DNA from: Pyrinomonadaceae bacterium | GTDB lineage: Bacteria; Acidobacteriota; Blastocatellia; Pyrinomonadales; Pyrinomonadaceae | DNA length: 64,000 nucleotides | Direction: 5' to 3' | Assembly (NCBI GenBank): GCA_036277115.1 | Contig: DASUNM010000027.1 | Span: forward strand, 372,001-436,000 | Part shown: positions 32,072 to 43,827 of the stretch, in pieces | Layout: each line of letters opens with the position of its first letter | Position numbering within the stretch: position 1 is the first letter of the stretch | The notes under the pieces: generated by a model | The model's database searches: none | Told to the model about the DNA's origin: nothing | What the model saw: the letters and a program-made list of their open reading frames with translations, nothing else | Made by a program: the position numbers and the translations under genes

Positions 32072-32431
32072 TCAGGAGGTGCCGCATGCATCTCAGCTCA
32101 CCGCGACATTTTAATTCTGCCAGTCCGCGGAGCGGACGCCAGCATAAAGCCTGGGGCGCAAGCCCCAGGATCGCGTCAAGCAAAAGCAAGCAAGCCCGCG
32201 AAGCGGGCGGCAGCCGAATCATCTGGACGAATGTTAAGCGTTACGGCTATCACCCGCTTCGCGGGTTCAATTGATATTTGTGGTACTTGACCTGGGGCTC
32301 ACGCCCCAGGCTCTATAATGACGTCCGCTCCGCGGACTAAAAGAGGTGAGCCAGCGGTCGCGTCACCGCGCTAGAAGCGGCGGTGTGAATGAGACGCTTC
32401 CTCGAAGAATTACGTTAGCGCGACGACTGTC
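32072..32431. repeat. Intergenic region with nested inverted repeats
   Basis: GTCCGCGGAGCGGAC plus CCTGGGGCGCAAGCCCCAGG (32122-32169) recurs inverted at 32291-32338. A CCCGCGAAGCGGG / CCCGCTTCGCGGG pair lies inside. No gene is supported. The convergent ends of the flanking genes make a bidirectional terminator role possible. Confidence 0.65.
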
Positions 32432-34661: not shown

Positions 34662-35735
34662 TCAACGCCCATTGCCCTGAGTGAGGCCCATCACATACAG
34701 CTCCCACTTCGGTTTGAAAGTTCGCATGTCCGGATTGCCCAGCACGCGGGCGAGCGTTTGATAACCGCTGGGGTCGGTCTTCTGATGCGCATAAAACTCT
34801 CGATAGAACTTCTGGAGCAGACCTTTCTGCTGCAGGTAATAGAGCAGGTAACGCGACTGTGCGTAGTGCGAGCCGCTCTCAAAGTTGTAGAACTCCGGCT
34901 CACTCATACCCATCAGTTTTCGGAACGCTGGGACGCGGCCGGCTTTGATGTCAGCCTGCAAACCAGGTAGTCGCCAGTTGGTGAAACCGTGGATGCGGCC
35001 ATTGACTTCGCCGCTCTGCTCGTACAGTGAACCGAGGCCTTCATTCAACCAGGGCGGACAGTTGGGAAAATTCGCTTCGACAAACGGATGGACGATTTCA
35101 TGGACGAGGGTGCCGCCGCCGGTCGAGATGTTCATCACGAGGGCTTTGTGAGTCTTCGAGTAATAGCCATACGGCGTATCCGGCTTATACCCGAACAGCA
35201 GTTTCGCATTCCGTTCGTAAGACGCCGCATCCTTGAACAGCCAGATATCAATAATCCCTTTCGGATCTTTCGAAAAGTATTCCTGCTTCAGTTTGTCGAC
35301 TGCCCACTTCACCGTGCGGATTGAATGCTGCTTCACATCGTCCGCCGGCTCATCTCCGATTACGACAAACGGCCTCTGCACCACAATCGTGAAGTCTTCG
35401 GAAGGAAGCTTTTTCTTGAGCTGCTCGATGTGGGTTCCAAACTCCGCGTCAGTGAAGCCCGTAGCAGTTGGTTCTTCCGCGGGTATGGCCTGACCAGTTG
35501 GAGTGAGGTCAGAACCGCCTGCGTCAGCGGGCGGGTCGTTGTCAGTACCGAGAGCGGCCCGGGGTCCCCGCGCGGGCATCCCGCGTGGAGTGGTGGATGC
35601 GACCGGATCAGGTGGCGACCGCAAATGCGAGTCAGTACCACCTGCGGTAGCGGGTGGGTTTGCGTTGCCGTAAACGCCGGATACGAACGCCCCAGCGACT
35701 AAGAAAAGAAAAGCTAGCTTTATCCGATTGGCCAT
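34662..35735 (-). CDS. Exported gluzincin-like metallopeptidase with repeat-derived N-terminal linker
   Basis: The frame opens at 35786, but ATG 35735 starts a signal peptide (MANRIKLAFLFLVAGAFVSG). About 60 low-complexity residues follow ([20 protein letters not shown] and similar), encoded by in-frame R2 repeats and a linking palindrome. The mature domain has TLVHEIVHPFVE (HExxH, near residue 210) and PWLNEGLGSLYE, whose Glu would be the third zinc ligand, as in DUF1570/gluzincin proteins. It is probably a periplasmic or extracellular zinc peptidase; a non-peptidase role cannot be excluded. Confidence 0.8.
   Translation of the reverse strand: MANRIKLAFLFLVAGAFVSGVYGNANPPATAGGTDSHLRSPPDPVASTTPRGMPARGPRAALGTDNDPPADAGGSDLTPTGQAIPAEEPTATGFTDAEFGTHIEQLKKKLPSEDFTIVVQRPFVVIGDEPADDVKQHSIRTVKWAVDKLKQEYFSKDPKGIIDIWLFKDAASYERNAKLLFGYKPDTPYGYYSKTHKALVMNISTGGGTLVHEIVHPFVEANFPNCPPWLNEGLGSLYEQSGEVNGRIHGFTNWRLPGLQADIKAGRVPAFRKLMGMSEPEFYNFESGSHYAQSRYLLYYLQQKGLLQKFYREFYAHQKTDPSGYQTLARVLGNPDMRTFKPKWELYVMGLTQGNGR
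35508..35660 (-). repeat. Two in-frame R2 repeats inside the gluzincin gene
   Basis: R2 copies at 35508-35536 (GTCAGAACCGCCTGCGTCAG start) and 35631-35660 (GTCAGTACCACCTGCGGTAG start) flank a GCGCGGGGACCCC-type palindrome. The whole segment is translated without stops in the peptidase frame. Confidence 0.8.
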
Positions 35736-35786: not shown

Positions 35787-35916
35787 ACATGAATGTTGCC
35801 AGCCCTGCGGCTTTGCCGCCGCACAGTGCGGTAAGCCTTCGGCTTACCGGCTAAGTCTCAGAGCACGTCGAGGCCACGCCTATGGACAGCGGATTACGTC
35901 CATACTGTGCTGTTGA
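35787..35916. repeat. Short repeat spacer between the peptidase and vsr
   Basis: CCTGCGGCTTTGCCGCCGCA and GGTAAGCCTTCGGCTTACC (about 35813-35848) are hairpin-forming. No gene is seen. Confidence 0.6.
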
Positions 35917-36324
35917 TTACGTAACGAGAAATCTGTGAAGTTTTCGCAGAAGCAATGCCGGCTTTCGCGTCTCACACTCCCAAACGATCAGAACTTTCCA
36001 TCCTTCACGTCTGAGCGCCCGAAGATTTCTCCGATCACGTTCGACATTCGACAGTCGTTTTGTTCGCCAGAACTGGGCATTAGTTGCGGGCACGACGCTT
36101 CCATACCTGCAGTTGTGCATGTGAAAGAAGCAACCATGCACATCGATGATTTTTCGATGTCGCACGAGAACAATGTCTGGCTTGCCAGGAAGGGTAGGTT
36201 TGTGAAGGCGGTACCTGTAGCCTAAACCGTGAACAATCGAACGGACTATTTTTTCAGGCTTGGTGTCGCGACTCCTGATTCGCGACATGTTGAAACTGCG
36301 CTTTGCTGGATCATGAACGTCCAT
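35917..36324 (-). CDS. vsr: Very short patch repair endonuclease Vsr
   Basis: This 135-residue protein has all Vsr landmarks: MSRIRSRDTKPE (Glu24), LPGKPDIVL (Asp50), DVHGCFFHMHNC (His63, His68) and TNAQFWRTKRLSNVERD. Vsr nicks 5' of the T in T:G mismatches made by deamination of 5-methylcytosine in Dcm sites, starting repair. It is the last gene of a five-gene operon; its ATG abuts the stop of the receiver gene (TAAATG). Pairing with a CCWGG-type methylase upstream fits the known function. Confidence 0.93.
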   Translation of the reverse strand: MDVHDPAKRSFNMSRIRSRDTKPEKIVRSIVHGLGYRYRLHKPTLPGKPDIVLVRHRKIIDVHGCFFHMHNCRYGSVVPATNAQFWRTKRLSNVERDRRNLRALRREGWKVLIVWECETRKPALLLRKLHRFLVT

Positions 36325-37398
36325 TTATCTGCGATCCACTTGGCAGAGCTCATCGACAAAACCCGCGCAGTCGATATCTGGCTGCCCTTGTCGTGCGTAA
36401 TACGATGAAAACCTCGCAACAACGTCCTTGATAAAAGACGGAGAGATCTGAAGGGCGGGAGCCGCAAATTCCTCCCCAAACCGGTCATGCGCTACCGAGT
36501 AAAGTTTTCTGAAATTCACGAAACCTCCGTCAAAAAAGGAGGTGCGCGGCAGCCAGTGATAGTTATCTGAGTAATTATTCGCAAGCAGCTTCTCAACTCT
36601 ATTCTGACGGGTCTTGTTGTTCGCTCCCTCAAGTATGGGGGTAAGGACTGTTTGAAAGCTCTCAACTTCTACTAAGAGTACTTGGTCACTCTTAGGCTGT
36701 CCGGTTTCCCTTACCACGAGGTCGCATGCTGGACTGAGTACAACGAACCTCTTGTCGTCACCGCGCTTAACAATGTTTCCGGTTCGAAGCCCCGGCGAAA
36801 AAGGAGGATAGATGTAGACTTCCTCAGGAAATGAATGTTCAACCTCCTCGTCGAGCAATTGCAGTAAGTGACTGAGGGTGTATCGCAACAGCGCCTTCTC
36901 AGTTCGCGGTGAATCAACACGGCCGTAGTCGACCCAAGTTTGTCGCTGCGGCAACAGGTTTTTCGTAAATACATCGTTGAGGCTTTTTTCAATCACGCCT
37001 CTTCCGCCCATGATTCTTGTCAGGCCGGAACAATGAATGTCCCAAAACATGTCGAACAACGCAGAGTATTCAATTTCGCCCTTCTTGAAGACGCCAAAAT
37101 AGGAGAGTTGAGGATCTGCGTTCTCGGGCGTACCGGTAAAGACAGCGATCGGAATCCGAAAATGTAAATCGGTTATCTTTTGAGCAACCTTATTTCCATC
37201 CGCATTCTCCTTGAGTCGGAGATCAATTATCGCTCCATCGAAAGAGCTATTTAGGATCTGCAATGCCTCTTCAAGTGTCTTGCAGACGGTTGAGCGAATA
37301 TCGCGATTGTTTTGTCGCGTATATGTCTCGATCGAATCTTGGAAGGTGGCCAAGTCTTGGTCGTTGTCTTCAACCAAGAGTAATTGAAAAGGCTCCAT
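36325..37398 (-). CDS. Receiver-domain protein with unrecognised C-terminal effector domain
   Basis: This 357-residue protein has a complete CheY-like receiver at about 4-125: acidic pair Glu10/Asp11 (LLLVEDND), phosphoacceptor Asp59 (GAIIDLRL), Thr88 (AVFTGT) and Lys105/106 (VFKKGE). The remaining roughly 230 residues are not an HTH or other known output. They contain KRFVVLSPACDLVV with a Cys-Asp pair, a KSDQVLLVEVE strand and a helical end. It lies 6 nt after the GHKL kinase stop and abuts vsr, so phosphotransfer from that kinase is the natural inference. A role in gating restriction or repair is a hypothesis. Confidence 0.85.
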   Translation of the reverse strand: MEPFQLLLVEDNDQDLATFQDSIETYTRQNNRDIRSTVCKTLEEALQILNSSFDGAIIDLRLKENADGNKVAQKITDLHFRIPIAVFTGTPENADPQLSYFGVFKKGEIEYSALFDMFWDIHCSGLTRIMGGRGVIEKSLNDVFTKNLLPQRQTWVDYGRVDSPRTEKALLRYTLSHLLQLLDEEVEHSFPEEVYIYPPFSPGLRTGNIVKRGDDKRFVVLSPACDLVVRETGQPKSDQVLLVEVESFQTVLTPILEGANNKTRQNRVEKLLANNYSDNYHWLPRTSFFDGGFVNFRKLYSVAHDRFGEEFAAPALQISPSFIKDVVARFSSYYARQGQPDIDCAGFVDELCQVDRR

Positions 37399-37404
37399 AC
37401 GTGA

Positions 37405-39561
37405 TCATTCGCCTTTCGGTTGCAAGCGGAAGTAAGCACCATTCGTCGACTCAAGGACCTCCAGTTCGAGTCCGTTTCGTGAAGCAGCCTCTCCCGCAAT
37501 TGCCAGTCCAAGCCCGGTTCCGTCCGGTTTGGTCGAAAACTCTGGCTCGAAGATGACTTCTGTCTCGATAAGATGGGGTTCGATGCCGGGTCCAGTATCT
37601 CGATAGTCGACATACTGTAGCCTCCCCTCCTCAGCGTATACCGTCACCGTAATCGCGCGTGGCCCCGAGGCCTTTTCCTTCATCCAAAAGAGGCTGTTAT
37701 CGGCTAAGTTCGTGAAAATAGCGTAAATGTCTTGCCGCCAACATTCGAAACGGAAGTCTTCGGGTCCGACAACGTCAACAGTGATTTTGTGTTCCTGAAA
37801 ATCCGAATGGAAAACGGCAAACACCTCCTCAATTGTTCGCTTGAGTGGCAATTCTTGCTTAGCTGAACGTCTTCCAGCAGCCAGAGGATCAAGCCGTCCG
37901 AATAATCTGACCAAAATTTCGGCGTTATGACCTATTCCATCAGCGATCGAAAGTAAGCGTTGAAGGCTCACGGAATCGTTATACTCAACATACTGGTCAT
38001 ACCAGAACCTTAGATTTGGGATCTGGTTCTTGAAGTAGTTTAGAGGACGTCTCCCTTCGTGAAGAACAACATTAACGATTTTCCCAAGGGTCGCCTGGCC
38101 TTGGTAAATTGCGACGGCCCGACGTATATCTTCCGCAATCTTATTTTTCTGTTCTTCATCTTTACTAATAATACTAATGATTTCATCGGTAATCCGGTCA
38201 TCTATACCGCCTTTAGATAGTTTGGCACGTACGTCACTTTTCAACTCCTCGAAACCGAAGAGCCTTTCTAATTCCCGTTCAATTTTTACGACTGGTCGAC
38301 TTAATCCTTCGTTCCTTCGGTACTCAAAGCGTCGTACTTCTAACTCACCAATTACTTTTTTTGTTATCGCTTTCAACTTTTGGAAAGCGGCGTCTTCCCG
38401 GAGGCCATCTCGAGCACTCTTCTCGACAAGTCCCGACTGCTCTTCGGATTGAATCAACACGTAACCGATAGCTTGATTACTCCCGATCCGGAGTGACGGG
38501 TTTTGCACTCGTTGTTCATTGAGCTTTAGCCAGTCGAAATCAGCGTCACCCAATGGCCTAATCCTAAAACCATTTCTGTAAACTCCGACGCCGTTGTAGT
38601 CATTTAGAAGCTTTCTTGCTTGGTTCTTTCCAACATAGGTCCCAGTTTCATCTTTCAGACCGCGATGAATGAGCAGTTCAATTGCTTGCGGTTCTCGATC
38701 ATAAACCCGAATGTCAAAGACCAATTCGCCGCATTCCGAGGGTGATCCCAAATCGAAAGAAATATCCTCGTGAACTGTGTTACGAACTTTTTGGTTTGAA
38801 TATTGCAAACTTCCAGTCCCACCAGCGGTCACTCGGCCCGCAATTCGGTAATCAAATAGCTCGAATACTGGATATGGTTCGATCACTTCGGTGAAGATGT
38901 CTGTTTCGAAGAAACCAATGATCGATAACTGAATCTTAAACCTATCAATGTCATCGTTTTCTGTGAGTCGAACACTTACTGGTGAAATCAGTTTCTTTAA
39001 CTCGAAGCGCAACTTATCGAATTCTGATTTATCCCAAGCGGCTACGAACTCCTGACCGCCGCTAATTGTCAGGCGTGTGCCGGGAGAGTCTTCTGAGGTT
39101 TTTGTTTCTACGAGCACATCAACGTCATCCAGATACTGAGCGTCAGCAAAACGATCCCACTGAATATAGACCGTCGTCTTTGCCCGGTCTGCAGTCACCG
39201 TTTCAAGTAGTAGATCGGCGCCAAGAATCGACGCCGCGTAGCGGCCAACACCCTTCCGCCCTTGCATGATCCTCCCTCCCGGACTCTTCTGGCGCAGAAG
39301 CTTGTCGTCTGTAGAGGGAACCATCCATTTATTGATAACCGTGTCACGCGACATACCATGCCCGTGGTCTTCAATACAGATTGATGTTACTTGGTGATCT
39401 GTTGATGTCTTGAATTCAAGGTTCACGTCGGGCGAATCAGCGTCGTAGGAGTTCTTAACCAGTTCTACGATGGCAGCATAGCGGTCTTGAATAAGGTCGC
39501 GTCCAATCGTCAAAATATGACGGCCCGCGGGACGAACTTTATGAACGTCGGTTTCTAACAT
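37405..39561 (-). CDS. Dual-GHKL ATPase: MORC/Hsp90-like N-domain fused to a histidine-kinase-like C-domain
   Basis: In this 718-residue protein the N-terminal GHKL fold has N-box AAIVELVKNSYDAD (Glu33, Asn37), G1 EDHGHGM (64-70) and G2 GRKGVGR (101-107), as in MutL/Hsp90/MORC ATPases. A transducer-like middle has GVYRNGFRIRPLGDADFDWL (about 325-344). A helical segment holds VVLHEGRRPLNYF, where His501 is a candidate phosphoacceptor. The C-terminal HATPase has FTNLADNSLFW (Asn618, Asn622), DTGPGI (655-660), FEPEFST and GTGLGLAIAG (681-690). GAGGAAGAGAG precedes its ATG. GHKL ATPases of MORC type are known next to restriction-modification genes; one with a kinase-like second module beside a receiver gene is striking. 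Confidence 0.9.
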   Translation of the reverse strand: MLETDVHKVRPAGRHILTIGRDLIQDRYAAIVELVKNSYDADSPDVNLEFKTSTDHQVTSICIEDHGHGMSRDTVINKWMVPSTDDKLLRQKSPGGRIMQGRKGVGRYAASILGADLLLETVTADRAKTTVYIQWDRFADAQYLDDVDVLVETKTSEDSPGTRLTISGGQEFVAAWDKSEFDKLRFELKKLISPVSVRLTENDDIDRFKIQLSIIGFFETDIFTEVIEPYPVFELFDYRIAGRVTAGGTGSLQYSNQKVRNTVHEDISFDLGSPSECGELVFDIRVYDREPQAIELLIHRGLKDETGTYVGKNQARKLLNDYNGVGVYRNGFRIRPLGDADFDWLKLNEQRVQNPSLRIGSNQAIGYVLIQSEEQSGLVEKSARDGLREDAAFQKLKAITKKVIGELEVRRFEYRRNEGLSRPVVKIERELERLFGFEELKSDVRAKLSKGGIDDRITDEIISIISKDEEQKNKIAEDIRRAVAIYQGQATLGKIVNVVLHEGRRPLNYFKNQIPNLRFWYDQYVEYNDSVSLQRLLSIADGIGHNAEILVRLFGRLDPLAAGRRSAKQELPLKRTIEEVFAVFHSDFQEHKITVDVVGPEDFRFECWRQDIYAIFTNLADNSLFWMKEKASGPRAITVTVYAEEGRLQYVDYRDTGPGIEPHLIETEVIFEPEFSTKPDGTGLGLAIAGEAASRNGLELEVLESTNGAYFRLQPKGE

Positions 39562-39576
39562 GAGTTCTCTCTTCCT

Positions 39577-40875
39577 CTACTTTTGAGAGTTTCGCCTTTG
39601 TTTTGCTAATACAAGATCGATAAACGTCTGAACATTCATGATCTCCCTGCGTTGAGCTCGCGTGTATGTGAGTAGAAGTCTATCCGGGATTACGAGAGTT
39701 AGACACCGTCTACGCATCGCATCGGTCTGGTTCGTAGAAATTGCGGGCTCGAGTGTGCACAGGTGCTTGTCTGGAATGCGATCGGCCTCATCTAAAACCT
39801 GTCGCCATCGATCCTTGCTTGTTGACTTTACCCCTAGCATTATGAGCAGACCGGCTTCGAATGCGGTGTTGTGGTATTCCCTTTCACCGGGGAAAATAAA
39901 GTCGGCTTTTGTTTTTCCCTCCGTTCGCGATTGTGCTTTAAATCTCAACCGATGCCGCGTGAACAGTTCTTCGAGATGATTCTGCAAAGCGAATCCCATT
40001 CGTGACTTGCGACGGTTCTGTACTGACAGGGAATACGCGACGAATTCGTCAACGCTATCGAAGCCTTTTTCCAAACGTTCGCCAACAATCACGTTTTCGA
40101 GAGCCCGAAACAGCTGTTCCTCTCGATCGAGCCAGCGGATGAGCGCTTCGTCTGGACTAAACGGATCAACTTCGACTTGCGTTCGAGCAAAGGTTGACAT
40201 CTCCTTTGTTATTGGGAATATGCGCCCGTAGCGGTCAAGCATTAACTGCTGATCGTTTGGCTCGGCGGGCACCGAAACCTCTAAGCCTAACTCATCAATG
40301 ATCTGTCGTTGAAGCAGAGCGACCGTCTGCTGATGGAGTTGTTCCTCGGGAACGGCGTCAAAAGAGAGAGATGCTCTTTCGATTCCGAAAAGCACGCGGG
40401 CTGCACGAAGCCACCCCGAATTCTTTTGAAATACAAGGCCGAACAAATCCCCGGACGAGGCTCTCACCAGTAAAAACCAATCGCCGACGTTCGCACGCTC
40501 CAGAAACTTCCCCTCGTAATAGAAGCGCCATTCACTCCGACCGGTTCTTGATGCGCTCTTCTCTCGAGCGTCGTAGAACGTAAAGTTCCCGCTCTCGCTT
40601 ACGGGAGCTTCGTCATCGGAAAAGTAATGCCAAGTAAGAGTCCCACGCGTGGATTCGCGAATGCCGAAGAACTCGCGGAGGTCATTGTCGCCGTTTAGTT
40701 CATGCTGGTTCGAGCCTCGATCCGGCAGGTCGACTGTGACCAGTTGTTTGTGCGCGACTCTACTGAAAATGGATGAGAGATTCACGACGCGGACATTGTC
40801 CTTAACCGGAGACGATTGGACAAGGGTAAATGTCGGCGGGACAAAACTAAGATCGATTTCCCACGTTCTTGGCAA
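39577..40875 (-). CDS. EcoRII-type type II restriction endonuclease
   Basis: The C-terminal domain of this 432-residue protein matches EcoRII. Asp325 (ADFIFP), Tyr334, Lys350, Lys354 and Arg356 ([13 protein letters not shown]) reproduce the spacing of EcoRII Asp299, Tyr308, Lys324, Lys328 and Arg330, as I recall them. [13 protein letters not shown] also follows the family. The N-terminal part (about 1-180) takes the place of the EcoRII effector-binding B3-like domain, which makes EcoRII need two sites. The expected target is CCWGG. The start is TTG 40875, overlapping the methyltransferase gene by 29 nt; no ATG is available nearby. No internal stop is present. Confidence 0.92.
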
Positions 40876-41920
40876 AGCTTAGAGGCAGAATCATTGAGAG
40901 CGCGCGGGCTTGGGACGGGGGTTGAAAGGGCGTAAGTTCGAATTCAGGATCGGCTGAAGGCTCAAGGCGCAGTGTGGTGACGACTCGCTTCGCGATCTTT
41001 TGTACAACGGGTACCACAACGGAGTTTCCGAACTGCCTGTAAGCTTGAGTATCGGAAACCGGTATTCTGAAATTTTTGGGGAATCCCATCAGCCGTGCGC
41101 ACTCGCGTGGCGTTAGTCTTCTAGGGTTCCTGTCGGGCCCTTGGGAAATTAGAATCTCAGAACCATCTTTGTGATAGCGAGCACTAAGAGTTCGAGCTAC
41201 GTCATCAGCGGTGAATACGCTGAACCCAAACCCGTTGCCGGCAGCCTTATGTTTTCTTGCATACTCCTGCAAGTAGTTCCAAAGGTGATCGCTAAGTGTG
41301 TACTTGCGGTCAACGTGCGACGCGAGAACGGTGCTCAACTTGGGGCCATTCTCTGGAAAGATTGGAAATGTGAAGGACCTGGGTTCGCGAAAACCGACCA
41401 AATAAATCCGTTCACGATGTTGTGGCACGACAGACTGAGCATCGATGATTGCCGCGTGTACGTCATAGCCCAATTCTTTGGTTAACGTGTTGTAAATAAC
41501 GTCGTAGGTTTTCCCTTGGTCATGTCGGTATAGATGCTTGACGTTCTCCAGTACAAAGGCCGCGGGACGGTGATGATCGATTATCTTCGCGATATAGGAA
41601 AACAGGTTCCCCTGCTTTTCATCTTCAAAACCGTGTTTTCTACCTAAACTGTTCTTCTTTGAAACGCCCGCGAGACTGAAAGGCTGGCAAGGGAAACCTG
41701 CACAAAGTATGTCGAACGGCTTTATGCCGGCAATATCGACTTCCCTGATATCGCTAAAGGGTTTTTCGCCGAAGTTTGCTTCGTAAGTTCTTTGCGAAAA
41801 CTTATCCCAGTCGCAGGAGAAAACGCACTTGCCACCGGCACGCTGGAATGCGATTCGAAAACCACCGATGCCGCAGAATAGATCGATGAAACGAAACTTC
41901 TTTTTAGGCGAGTTCTTCAA
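40847..41920 (-). CDS. DNA (cytosine-5) methyltransferase, Dcm/M.EcoRII type
   Basis: This 357-residue C5 methylase has motif [11 protein letters not shown], motif [10 protein letters not shown] (catalytic Cys78), motif VI LENVK (Glu125), motif [15 protein letters not shown], motif [17 protein letters not shown] and motif [12 protein letters not shown]. The target-recognition region includes [18 protein letters not shown], as in CCWGG methylases. It protects host DNA from the linked EcoRII-like nuclease. Only a TTG at 41920 can start this frame (upstream in-frame stop close by), with no clear ribosome-binding site. It is the first gene of the operon. Confidence 0.94.
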
Positions 41921-42064
41921 ATGTGTAAGTGCTGGATAAATATTTTAGAGGCTTCTTTCATTGAAGCGACTACTTTAGCAGAGCAGTCAAGTGATGAGAA
42001 TCGTCGTCGCGCTCAAGTTCGGCATAAAACACAACATGAGTTCCCTCGTGCGTTTTCTTACCTT

Positions 42065-43276: not shown

Positions 43277-43827
43277 TAAGGGATTTTACAGTGAGCGGAA
43301 TCTCAGTTTCGAGTTCAGAGTTTCAAGTTTCGAGTTAAGAAACAGAAGCAGAAATAGGAAGCCAGTGAACATCGGGGGTAAACCGCCCTTCCTAACCTTG
43401 AGGCATTTCAGGTTGCGGTTTTCTGTCGCCGGCTAAAGCCGGCTTTGAAATTCATCCTAATCTGCGATCCCAGCGCTGAAGCGCTGGGCTACTTTCAAAC
43501 GTCCGCTTCGCGGACGCAATCCAAAGCGCCGTCTAGAGCACCCCACGCGAGATGCTCGCGCGGGGACCCCGCGAGCCGGCGCACTCCACATTTGCTGACG
43601 CAAACCCTCACCCCGGCCCTCTCCCAGCGGGAGAGGGAGAAGAATACAAAGCGCCGTCGAGCCGGCGCACTCCAAAAGCAGTGCAGGATGCGCGCGATCC
43701 GCTAAGCTTCGCACCCTCACCCCGCCTCTCCCAGGGGGAGAGGGAGAAGAAGAATTCAAAGCGCCGTTGAGCCGGCGCTCCAAATGCAGGCGAGGACGCC
43801 TGCGTACCCAGGCGGCGCCAAGACCGA
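43277..43827. repeat. Repeat cluster (R5, R3, R1) without genes
   Basis: R5 lies at 43298-43343 (inverted relative to 34589-34632). R3 units (CCCAGCGCTGAAGCGCTGGG, GTCCGCTTCGCGGAC, AAAGCGCCGTCnAGCCGGCGCACTCC-like) are at about 43425-43600, 43645-43690 and 43757-43790. R1 copies are at 43606-43642 and 43711-43751. Open frames here are translated repeats and are not accepted as genes. Confidence 0.75.

Follow-up and report, generated by a model that had tools for sequence, protein, structure and literature searches.

The window, the 64,000-nucleotide stretch of Pyrinomonadaceae DNA analysed here, contains a cassette of genes on the minus strand. Read 5' to 3' on that strand, they encode a Dcm-type C5-cytosine DNA methyltransferase (MTase; 40847–41920; PF00145, 7e-87; TIGR00675, 4e-88), an EcoRII-type restriction endonuclease (REase; 39577–40875) with its EcoRII-C domain at residues 256–419 (PF09019, 1.1e-61), a sensor kinase with two GHKL ATPase modules (37405–39561), a protein with a receiver (REC) domain (36325–37398) and a Vsr very-short-patch mismatch endonuclease (35917–36324; PF03852, 1.8e-29; TIGR00632 over cut-off). 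Successive genes are separated, in that order, by a 29-bp overlap and then by 15, 6 and 0 bp. The linked C5-MTase, EcoRII-C and Vsr genes make up a Type II restriction-modification (R-M) system of the Dcm/EcoRII, CCWGG class, the class being assigned by gene content. A scan for sigma-70 promoters gave nothing above chance.

The cassette (35900–41950) is low in GC, with ~44–53% across positions 36000–42000 against ~54–61% on the flanks, and a search of G377, the only genome of the same genus sampled, turned up no close homologue of the kinase (best match 1.6e-17). These two observations are consistent with recent, horizontal acquisition. Comparison with G377 for an empty site gave only repeats and short matches, the synteny of the flanks being too poor to fix the ends of an insertion. 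Two Acido-Lenti-1 RNA elements (RF01687), members of a family known from Acidobacteria and Lentisphaerae, lie on the plus strand on either side of the cassette (32291–32338 and 43469–43516) and point to an acidobacterium as the probable host. Dispersed repeats are also found nearby (35541–35609 and 32122–32209) and recur many times in G377 at ~70–91% identity.

The kinase and its receiver partner

The kinase is a single open reading frame of 718 amino acids with an ATG start. An earlier note on this DNA had proposed that the frame joins two GHKL modules of different lineages, and this was borne out both by Pfam, with HATPase_c_3 at residues 29–136 (E=4.3e-18) and HATPase_c at residues 611–715 (E=1.4e-15), each far over its curated cut-off, and by Foldseek. 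The motifs that the note had called intact are all present, namely E33-LVKN-SYDAD42, D65-HGHGM70 and QGRKGVGRY (100–108) in the N-terminal module and H501-EGRRPL, NLADNS (618–623), DTGPG (655–659) and GTGLGL (681–686) in the C-terminal half. The protein was aligned with 29 homologues from one scan of a collection of species-representative genomes, each from a separate locus and 46–68% identical (best segment) over nearly the full length. The main catalytic residues were invariant in 30/30 sequences: E33, N37, D65, G67, G69, G101, K103 and G104 in the N-terminal ATP site and H501, E502, N618, N622, D655, G657, G659, G681, G683 and G685 in the C-terminal half.

Residues 1–418 (38308–39561, minus strand) were assigned by alignment, structure prediction and conservation to a MORC/Hsp90-like GHKL ATPase followed by an S5-like middle domain. 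The middle domain has the invariant signatures YRN/FRN..RxRPxGD (328–339), R351 and EKSxRDG (380–386); R329, R333, R335, R351 and R384 are conserved in 30/30, and position 381 is lysine in 29 and arginine in one. The name S5 is given to this predicted domain from the structural match to MORC and Hsp90, the conserved arginines and lysine, and knowledge of the fold. The AlphaFold2 model of the monomer (mean pLDDT 74.7, pTM 0.56) shows, in order, a GHKL fold, the middle domain, two long helices and a CA domain. Foldseek with this model matched MORC3, MORC2-DNA, SMCHD1 and Hsp90 over ~450–490 columns, and a profile built from the 30 homologues and run against the PDB also matched HtpG/Hsp90 with its N-terminal part. 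MORC/Hsp90/MutL-like GHKL+S5 modules are dimerising, ATP-driven clamps, and those of the Hsp90 type are able to clamp proteins too. PADLOC and NCBIfam gave only partial matches to the kinase, with REase_II and BbrUII/HgiDII over the GHKL part and histidine kinases over the C-terminal part; neither library has a family that covers the whole protein.

The C-terminal half had been described as kinase-like from residue 501 to 690. Judged by its sequence it is a complete HisKA-type kinase, with a core that starts at ~490 and not at 501. It comprises DHp helices at residues 489–559 (37885–38097, minus strand) with the putative phospho-acceptor H501 and the adjacent acidic E502, assigned by profile, AlphaFold2 and conservation, and a CA (HATPase_c) domain at residues 569–718 (37408–37857, minus strand), assigned by Pfam, AlphaFold2 and Foldseek. 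From the H-box to the G2 box the profile of homologues matched ZraS (2.5e-14), ThkA (8e-14), a FixL chimera (1.8e-12) and HK853 (~1e-8), and H501 was aligned with the H-box histidines of ZraS, ThkA (3a0r) and FixL. Structure prediction placed the region within the HATPase fold, on which the earlier proposal had depended: Foldseek matched HK853, ZraS and CusS over ~230–260 columns, and FixL too. The model has helices at 492–527, which holds H501, and at 530–557, with pLDDT below 50 at ~477–503.

Like the HisKA-type kinases ZraS, ThkA, FixL and HK853, the window kinase thus has a DHp with a His-Glu pair and a CA domain with N, G1, F and G2 boxes. Unlike them it has no PAS, GAF, HAMP or transmembrane sensor and instead carries a second GHKL ATPase at the input position. 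It differs also at the fourth residue after the histidine, where HisKA kinases carry the threonine or asparagine needed for phosphatase activity. This residue is R505 in the window protein and R, K, Q, H or L across the 30 sequences, never T or N. Its absence suggests a kinase-dominant switch and, by analogy with the HisKA family, weak phosphatase activity.

The gene that follows encodes the probable cognate response regulator, a protein of 357 amino acids assigned from a weak Pfam match, profiles, AlphaFold2 and alignments. It consists of a REC domain (residues 1–124) with the predicted phospho-acceptor D59, a helical linker and a C-terminal domain (~188–345). The Response_reg match was below the cut-off for the window protein (E 9e-4) and reached 1.5e-6 for the best homologue; a profile of the REC protein matched RCP1 (1.2e-6). 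In the AlphaFold2 model (pLDDT 87) the first 124 residues form a receiver fold by Foldseek. E10, D11 and D59 are invariant (28/28), T88 is found in 26/28 and K106 in 24/28, with R noted otherwise. A receiver with an intact acidic pocket and phospho-Asp, encoded 6 bp downstream of the kinase, makes the two proteins a soluble two-component pair. The earlier note suggested that closure of a clamp on DNA could be read out as phosphorylation. Of the two parts of this idea, closure on DNA is hypothetical, and phosphorylation as the read-out is, as far as sequence can tell, well supported by the alignment of H501 with known H-boxes, by the completeness of the HisKA-type kinase and by the acidic-pocket residues (E10-D11, D59, T88, K106/R) of a partner found next to the kinase at every locus where it could be seen. 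The S5-like domain, the helical DHp and the REC/R-M operon go beyond what that note had described.

The C-terminal domain of the REC protein (36325–36831, minus strand) is conserved, with invariant PxCD and RxGxP motifs, and the signature [ST]PxCD[LI] occurs also in the REC proteins of distant relatives (L073, L077, L082, L083). Nothing significant was matched in Pfam, the PDB or phrogs, Foldseek matched the REC part only and no recognisable DNA-binding motif was seen in the domain. The branch therefore reveals a conserved response-regulator output domain that has neither a Pfam model nor a solved relative. A PemK/MazF-like barrel, proposed by eye from the pattern 'G-I...VVLSP...GG', was rejected since the profile-profile comparison gave E 0.37 against 0.09 for the REC control.

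Relatives and gene neighbourhood

Homologues of the kinase were found in Bacteroidota, Chlorobiota, Nitrospirota, Thermodesulfobacteriota, Myxococcota, Pseudomonadota, Bacillota, Actinomycetota, Acidobacteriota, Chloroflexota, Kiritimatiellota, Latescibacterota and a Methanoperedenaceae archaeon. Plasmid records contained homologues in Enterobacter mori (L036, 61% identity), Hymenobacter (46%) and Campylobacter (35%); megablast of the Enterobacter mori pair against complete E. coli genomes gave no match. A 76-kb viral contig (L114, IMG/VR 3300042269_000666) encodes a homologue of 64% identity, with the genes arranged as MTase, kinase, response regulator, Vsr. The window pair thus belongs to a distinct, widely transferred branch of ~720 amino acids, marked by HEGRRPL, in Bacteria, an archaeon, plasmids and viral contigs. 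Members of the wider double-GHKL family occur often on viral contigs, at L114 and 65 other loci, with a C5-MTase within the flank in 26 of the 67 viral-contig loci examined, and this frequency indicates that phages or prophages carry the family.

The earlier note had implied that the fused architecture was new. Double-HATPase kinases had, however, already been described by Bellieny-Rabelo et al. in 2021 (PMC8011034), who found the order HATPase_c_3+HEF_HK+HATPase_c in 174/222 HEF_HK proteins, a linked Response_reg_2 gene for 91.6% of HEF_HK and neighbours including C5-MTase, Vsr and EcoRII-C. Architectures lacking one or other HATPase were also recorded, and the authors proposed a sensor role for HATPase_c_3 and a possible control of R-M by the pair (PMC8011034). 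Since that paper already contained the architecture, the sensor idea and the R-M context, it is prior art for the design in general and for the greater part of what the earlier note suggested; the branch itself lies outside the published domain models. The literature searched, which reached few subscription journals, contained no experimental work on the HEG or HEF_HK branch.

The window pair resembles the HEF_HK/Response_reg_2 systems (PF19191, PF19192) in having HATPase_c_3, a DHp-like region and HATPase_c in one soluble chain, both HATPases being present in 30/30 homologues, in the adjacent REC gene and in C5-MTase, Vsr and other R-M neighbours. The kinase homology is colinear. Hhalign against two HEF_HK proteins (L069/L070) gave a probability of 99.5 and E 2.6e-22 over S5+DHp+CA, or 1.7e-16 over DHp+CA, and aligned the HEF histidine with H501. 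Common descent of the two groups is clear from these profile alignments. The differences are that the window branch is of ~720 amino acids, whereas the two HEF_HK proteins examined are longer (1042 amino acids for the complete-looking one) and have an extended linker ahead of the DHp, and that its H-box reads HEGRRPL and not HEF. Assignment of the window pair to the two Pfam families was rejected, as both models fail: PF19191 matched 0/30 homologues at E<=1 and nothing in the window genome at E<=10, and PF19192 matched 0/28 REC proteins at E<=1 while it does match the partners of true HEF_HK proteins. Comparison of the whole window REC protein with a HEF_HK-partner REC gave no significant alignment. 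A tree separates the HEG sequences from the HEF_HK sequences, each set forming a group of its own and the latter a long-branched one; deeper placements are unsure because of several long branches.

A GHKL module with intact motifs and an S5 domain at the N-terminus is the arrangement seen in MORCs and paraMORCs. The available text of Iyer, Abhiman and Aravind 2008 (PMC2292703) describes these from R-M operons that also encode C5-MTases, Vsr and EcoRII-like nucleases. The window kinase shares with them the GHKL+S5 module and C5-MTase and Vsr neighbours. It differs in its C-terminal half, since in that text paraMORC1–5 carry S5 with nuclease, TIR or uncharacterised C-terminal extensions and a histidine kinase core is not mentioned (PMC2292703). 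The GHKL Shedu protein VcSduA (paraMORC3; PMC12137116) is similar in that its GHKL ATPase has been put forward as the control of an output domain in defence against phage. That output is a DUF4263 nuclease fused to the ATPase, where the window system has a kinase and a REC protein encoded apart from it. GrwAB from the same paper (PMC12137116) was considered as a relative and set aside as unrelated, being a DUF262 system.

In 32/32 homologous loci with a continuing contig, the gene next after the kinase is that of the REC protein. In 23/33 loci the gene just upstream, on the same strand, encodes a C5-MTase of ~420 amino acids, the gene ends mostly touching or overlapping, and this usual MTase is only distantly similar (~24–28%) to that of the window. 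Distance matrices for kinase and response regulator were closely correlated (r=0.94, n=32, Mantel p=0.0005), as were those for kinase and upstream MTase (r=0.89, n=23, Mantel p=0.0005), while r was 0.42 for kinase and Vsr. These values indicate that the genes for kinase, REC protein and MTase mostly move together, while Vsr and nucleases are gained and lost around them. Nine loci flanked by 1.5 kb or more of sequence on each side (L046, L049, L050, L052, L055, L057, L061, L064, L065) have a co-directional operon of MTase, kinase, REC protein and sometimes Vsr with no recognised REase, a count that covers library-recognised nucleases inside the operon and would miss unrecognised or distant ones. 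Some loci, L036 among them, have no MTase adjacent to the pair, and at L067 a set of EcoRII-C, Vsr and Dcm-type genes lies beside it in the opposite direction. HNH_2 is found in a gene upstream at L043 and an HNH_5 gene follows the REC gene at L060.

A sister branch (L075:7619–8898 and L081:8049–9313) has a short REC-like protein after the kinase. The next gene at L075 encodes an HNH protein (209 amino acids, Pfam HNH 7e-5), and a gene of the same cluster takes that place at L081, which suggests an exchange of output modules.

Proposed mechanism and alternatives

The reading favoured here, with a probability of roughly 65%, is that of a soluble two-component pair wired to a DNA-methylation and restriction cassette, with the clamp as input and a His-Asp relay to the REC protein. 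The N-terminal GHKL+S5 module would take the place of a sensor domain and would engage a target. The likeliest is DNA that is foreign or carries the wrong methylation, or a complex assembled on it; it is the R-M context that points to DNA as the ligand. Engagement would lead to ATP-dependent closure and hence to an altered geometry of the helices leading into the DHp. The CA domain would then place phosphate on H501, from where it would pass to D59 of the adjacent REC protein, whose C-terminal domain may act as the output that gates or executes a restriction or regulatory response. Sequence and structure comparison establish the parts, namely both ATPase modules, the DHp with its His-Glu pair, the receiver with its acidic pocket, the constant adjacency of the two genes and the link to C5-MTase and Vsr; the order of events is modelled on the known behaviour of HisKA kinases and of MORC/Hsp90 clamps. 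Against this reading count the uncertain placement of domains in the kinase model, as indicated by its pTM and by the low pLDDT just before and at the start of the DHp, the loss of the H-box in a distant relative (L085) and the non-standard partner in the window, where the Dcm/EcoRII pair fills the usual MTase slot.

Such a kinase would combine two mechanisms rarely found together, since a MORC/Hsp90-type ATP clamp would provide the input to a histidine kinase. Should the clamp read the state of DNA, this would be a two-component system with DNA methylation or foreignness as its stimulus and restriction, or the control of restriction, as its response. The branch is compact (~720 plus 360 amino acids), shows full conservation of its catalytic residues and has close relatives on Enterobacter plasmids and in Aeromonas (A. 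bestiarum, L058), so that phosphotransfer, DNA dependence and restriction of phage are open to testing in E. coli.

The strongest alternative, to which about one chance in three might be given, is that the pair merely tunes the expression or activity of the MTase and REase, for example during establishment or when methylation drops, with EcoRII-C performing restriction here and other REases elsewhere. Response regulators usually regulate, a full Dcm-type/EcoRII/Vsr set stands beside the pair in the window and at L067, and a regulatory role has also been suggested in PMC8011034. Such a role is harder to reconcile with the nine roomy loci that have MTase, kinase and response regulator, with or without Vsr, and no REase recognised in the operon, with the lack of an adjacent MTase at some loci (L036) and with a response-regulator C-terminal domain devoid of any recognisable DNA-binding motif.

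The loci in which no REase was recognised leave restriction by the REC C-terminal domain itself as an option. Taken to its full extent, the HEGRRPL kinase and its REC protein would be the restriction arm, a MORC-like clamp reading 5mC and the phosphorylated REC protein arming its PxCD/RxGxP domain, so that the trigger is a phosphorelay and not a sequence-specific endonuclease; this bolder form of the two-component reading is rather unlikely. Equally doubtful is a GHKL-S5 module that clamps protein and not DNA, as an Hsp90-like chaperone or a remodeller of R-M complexes, with the kinase reporting client occupancy. The HATPase_c_3 region does match HtpG/Hsp90 by profile and fold, and DNA-binding residues were not identified, but the R-M context, the association of MORCs and paraMORCs with DNA enzymes in the available text of PMC2292703 and the presence of MORC2-DNA among the Foldseek matches speak for DNA.

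That phosphorylation has no role, the DHp and CA being a structural relic behind a GHKL-S5 module that acts alone as a paraMORC, is very improbable given that H501, E502, N618, D655 and the G2 glycines are invariant over 30 sequences from more than 10 phyla and D59 is invariant in the partner, even though a distant relative has lost the histidine and G1 motif and architectures without one or other HATPase are described in PMC8011034. This relative (L085, 1–1896, G221) has a double-GHKL protein, its N-terminus lost at the contig end, with VFARI instead of LHEGR and a damaged G1 box that reads NNGLP instead of DxGPG, and it is apparently kinase-dead as judged from these substitutions. Loss of the phospho-acceptor histidine there means that kinase activity would not be universal across the wider family.
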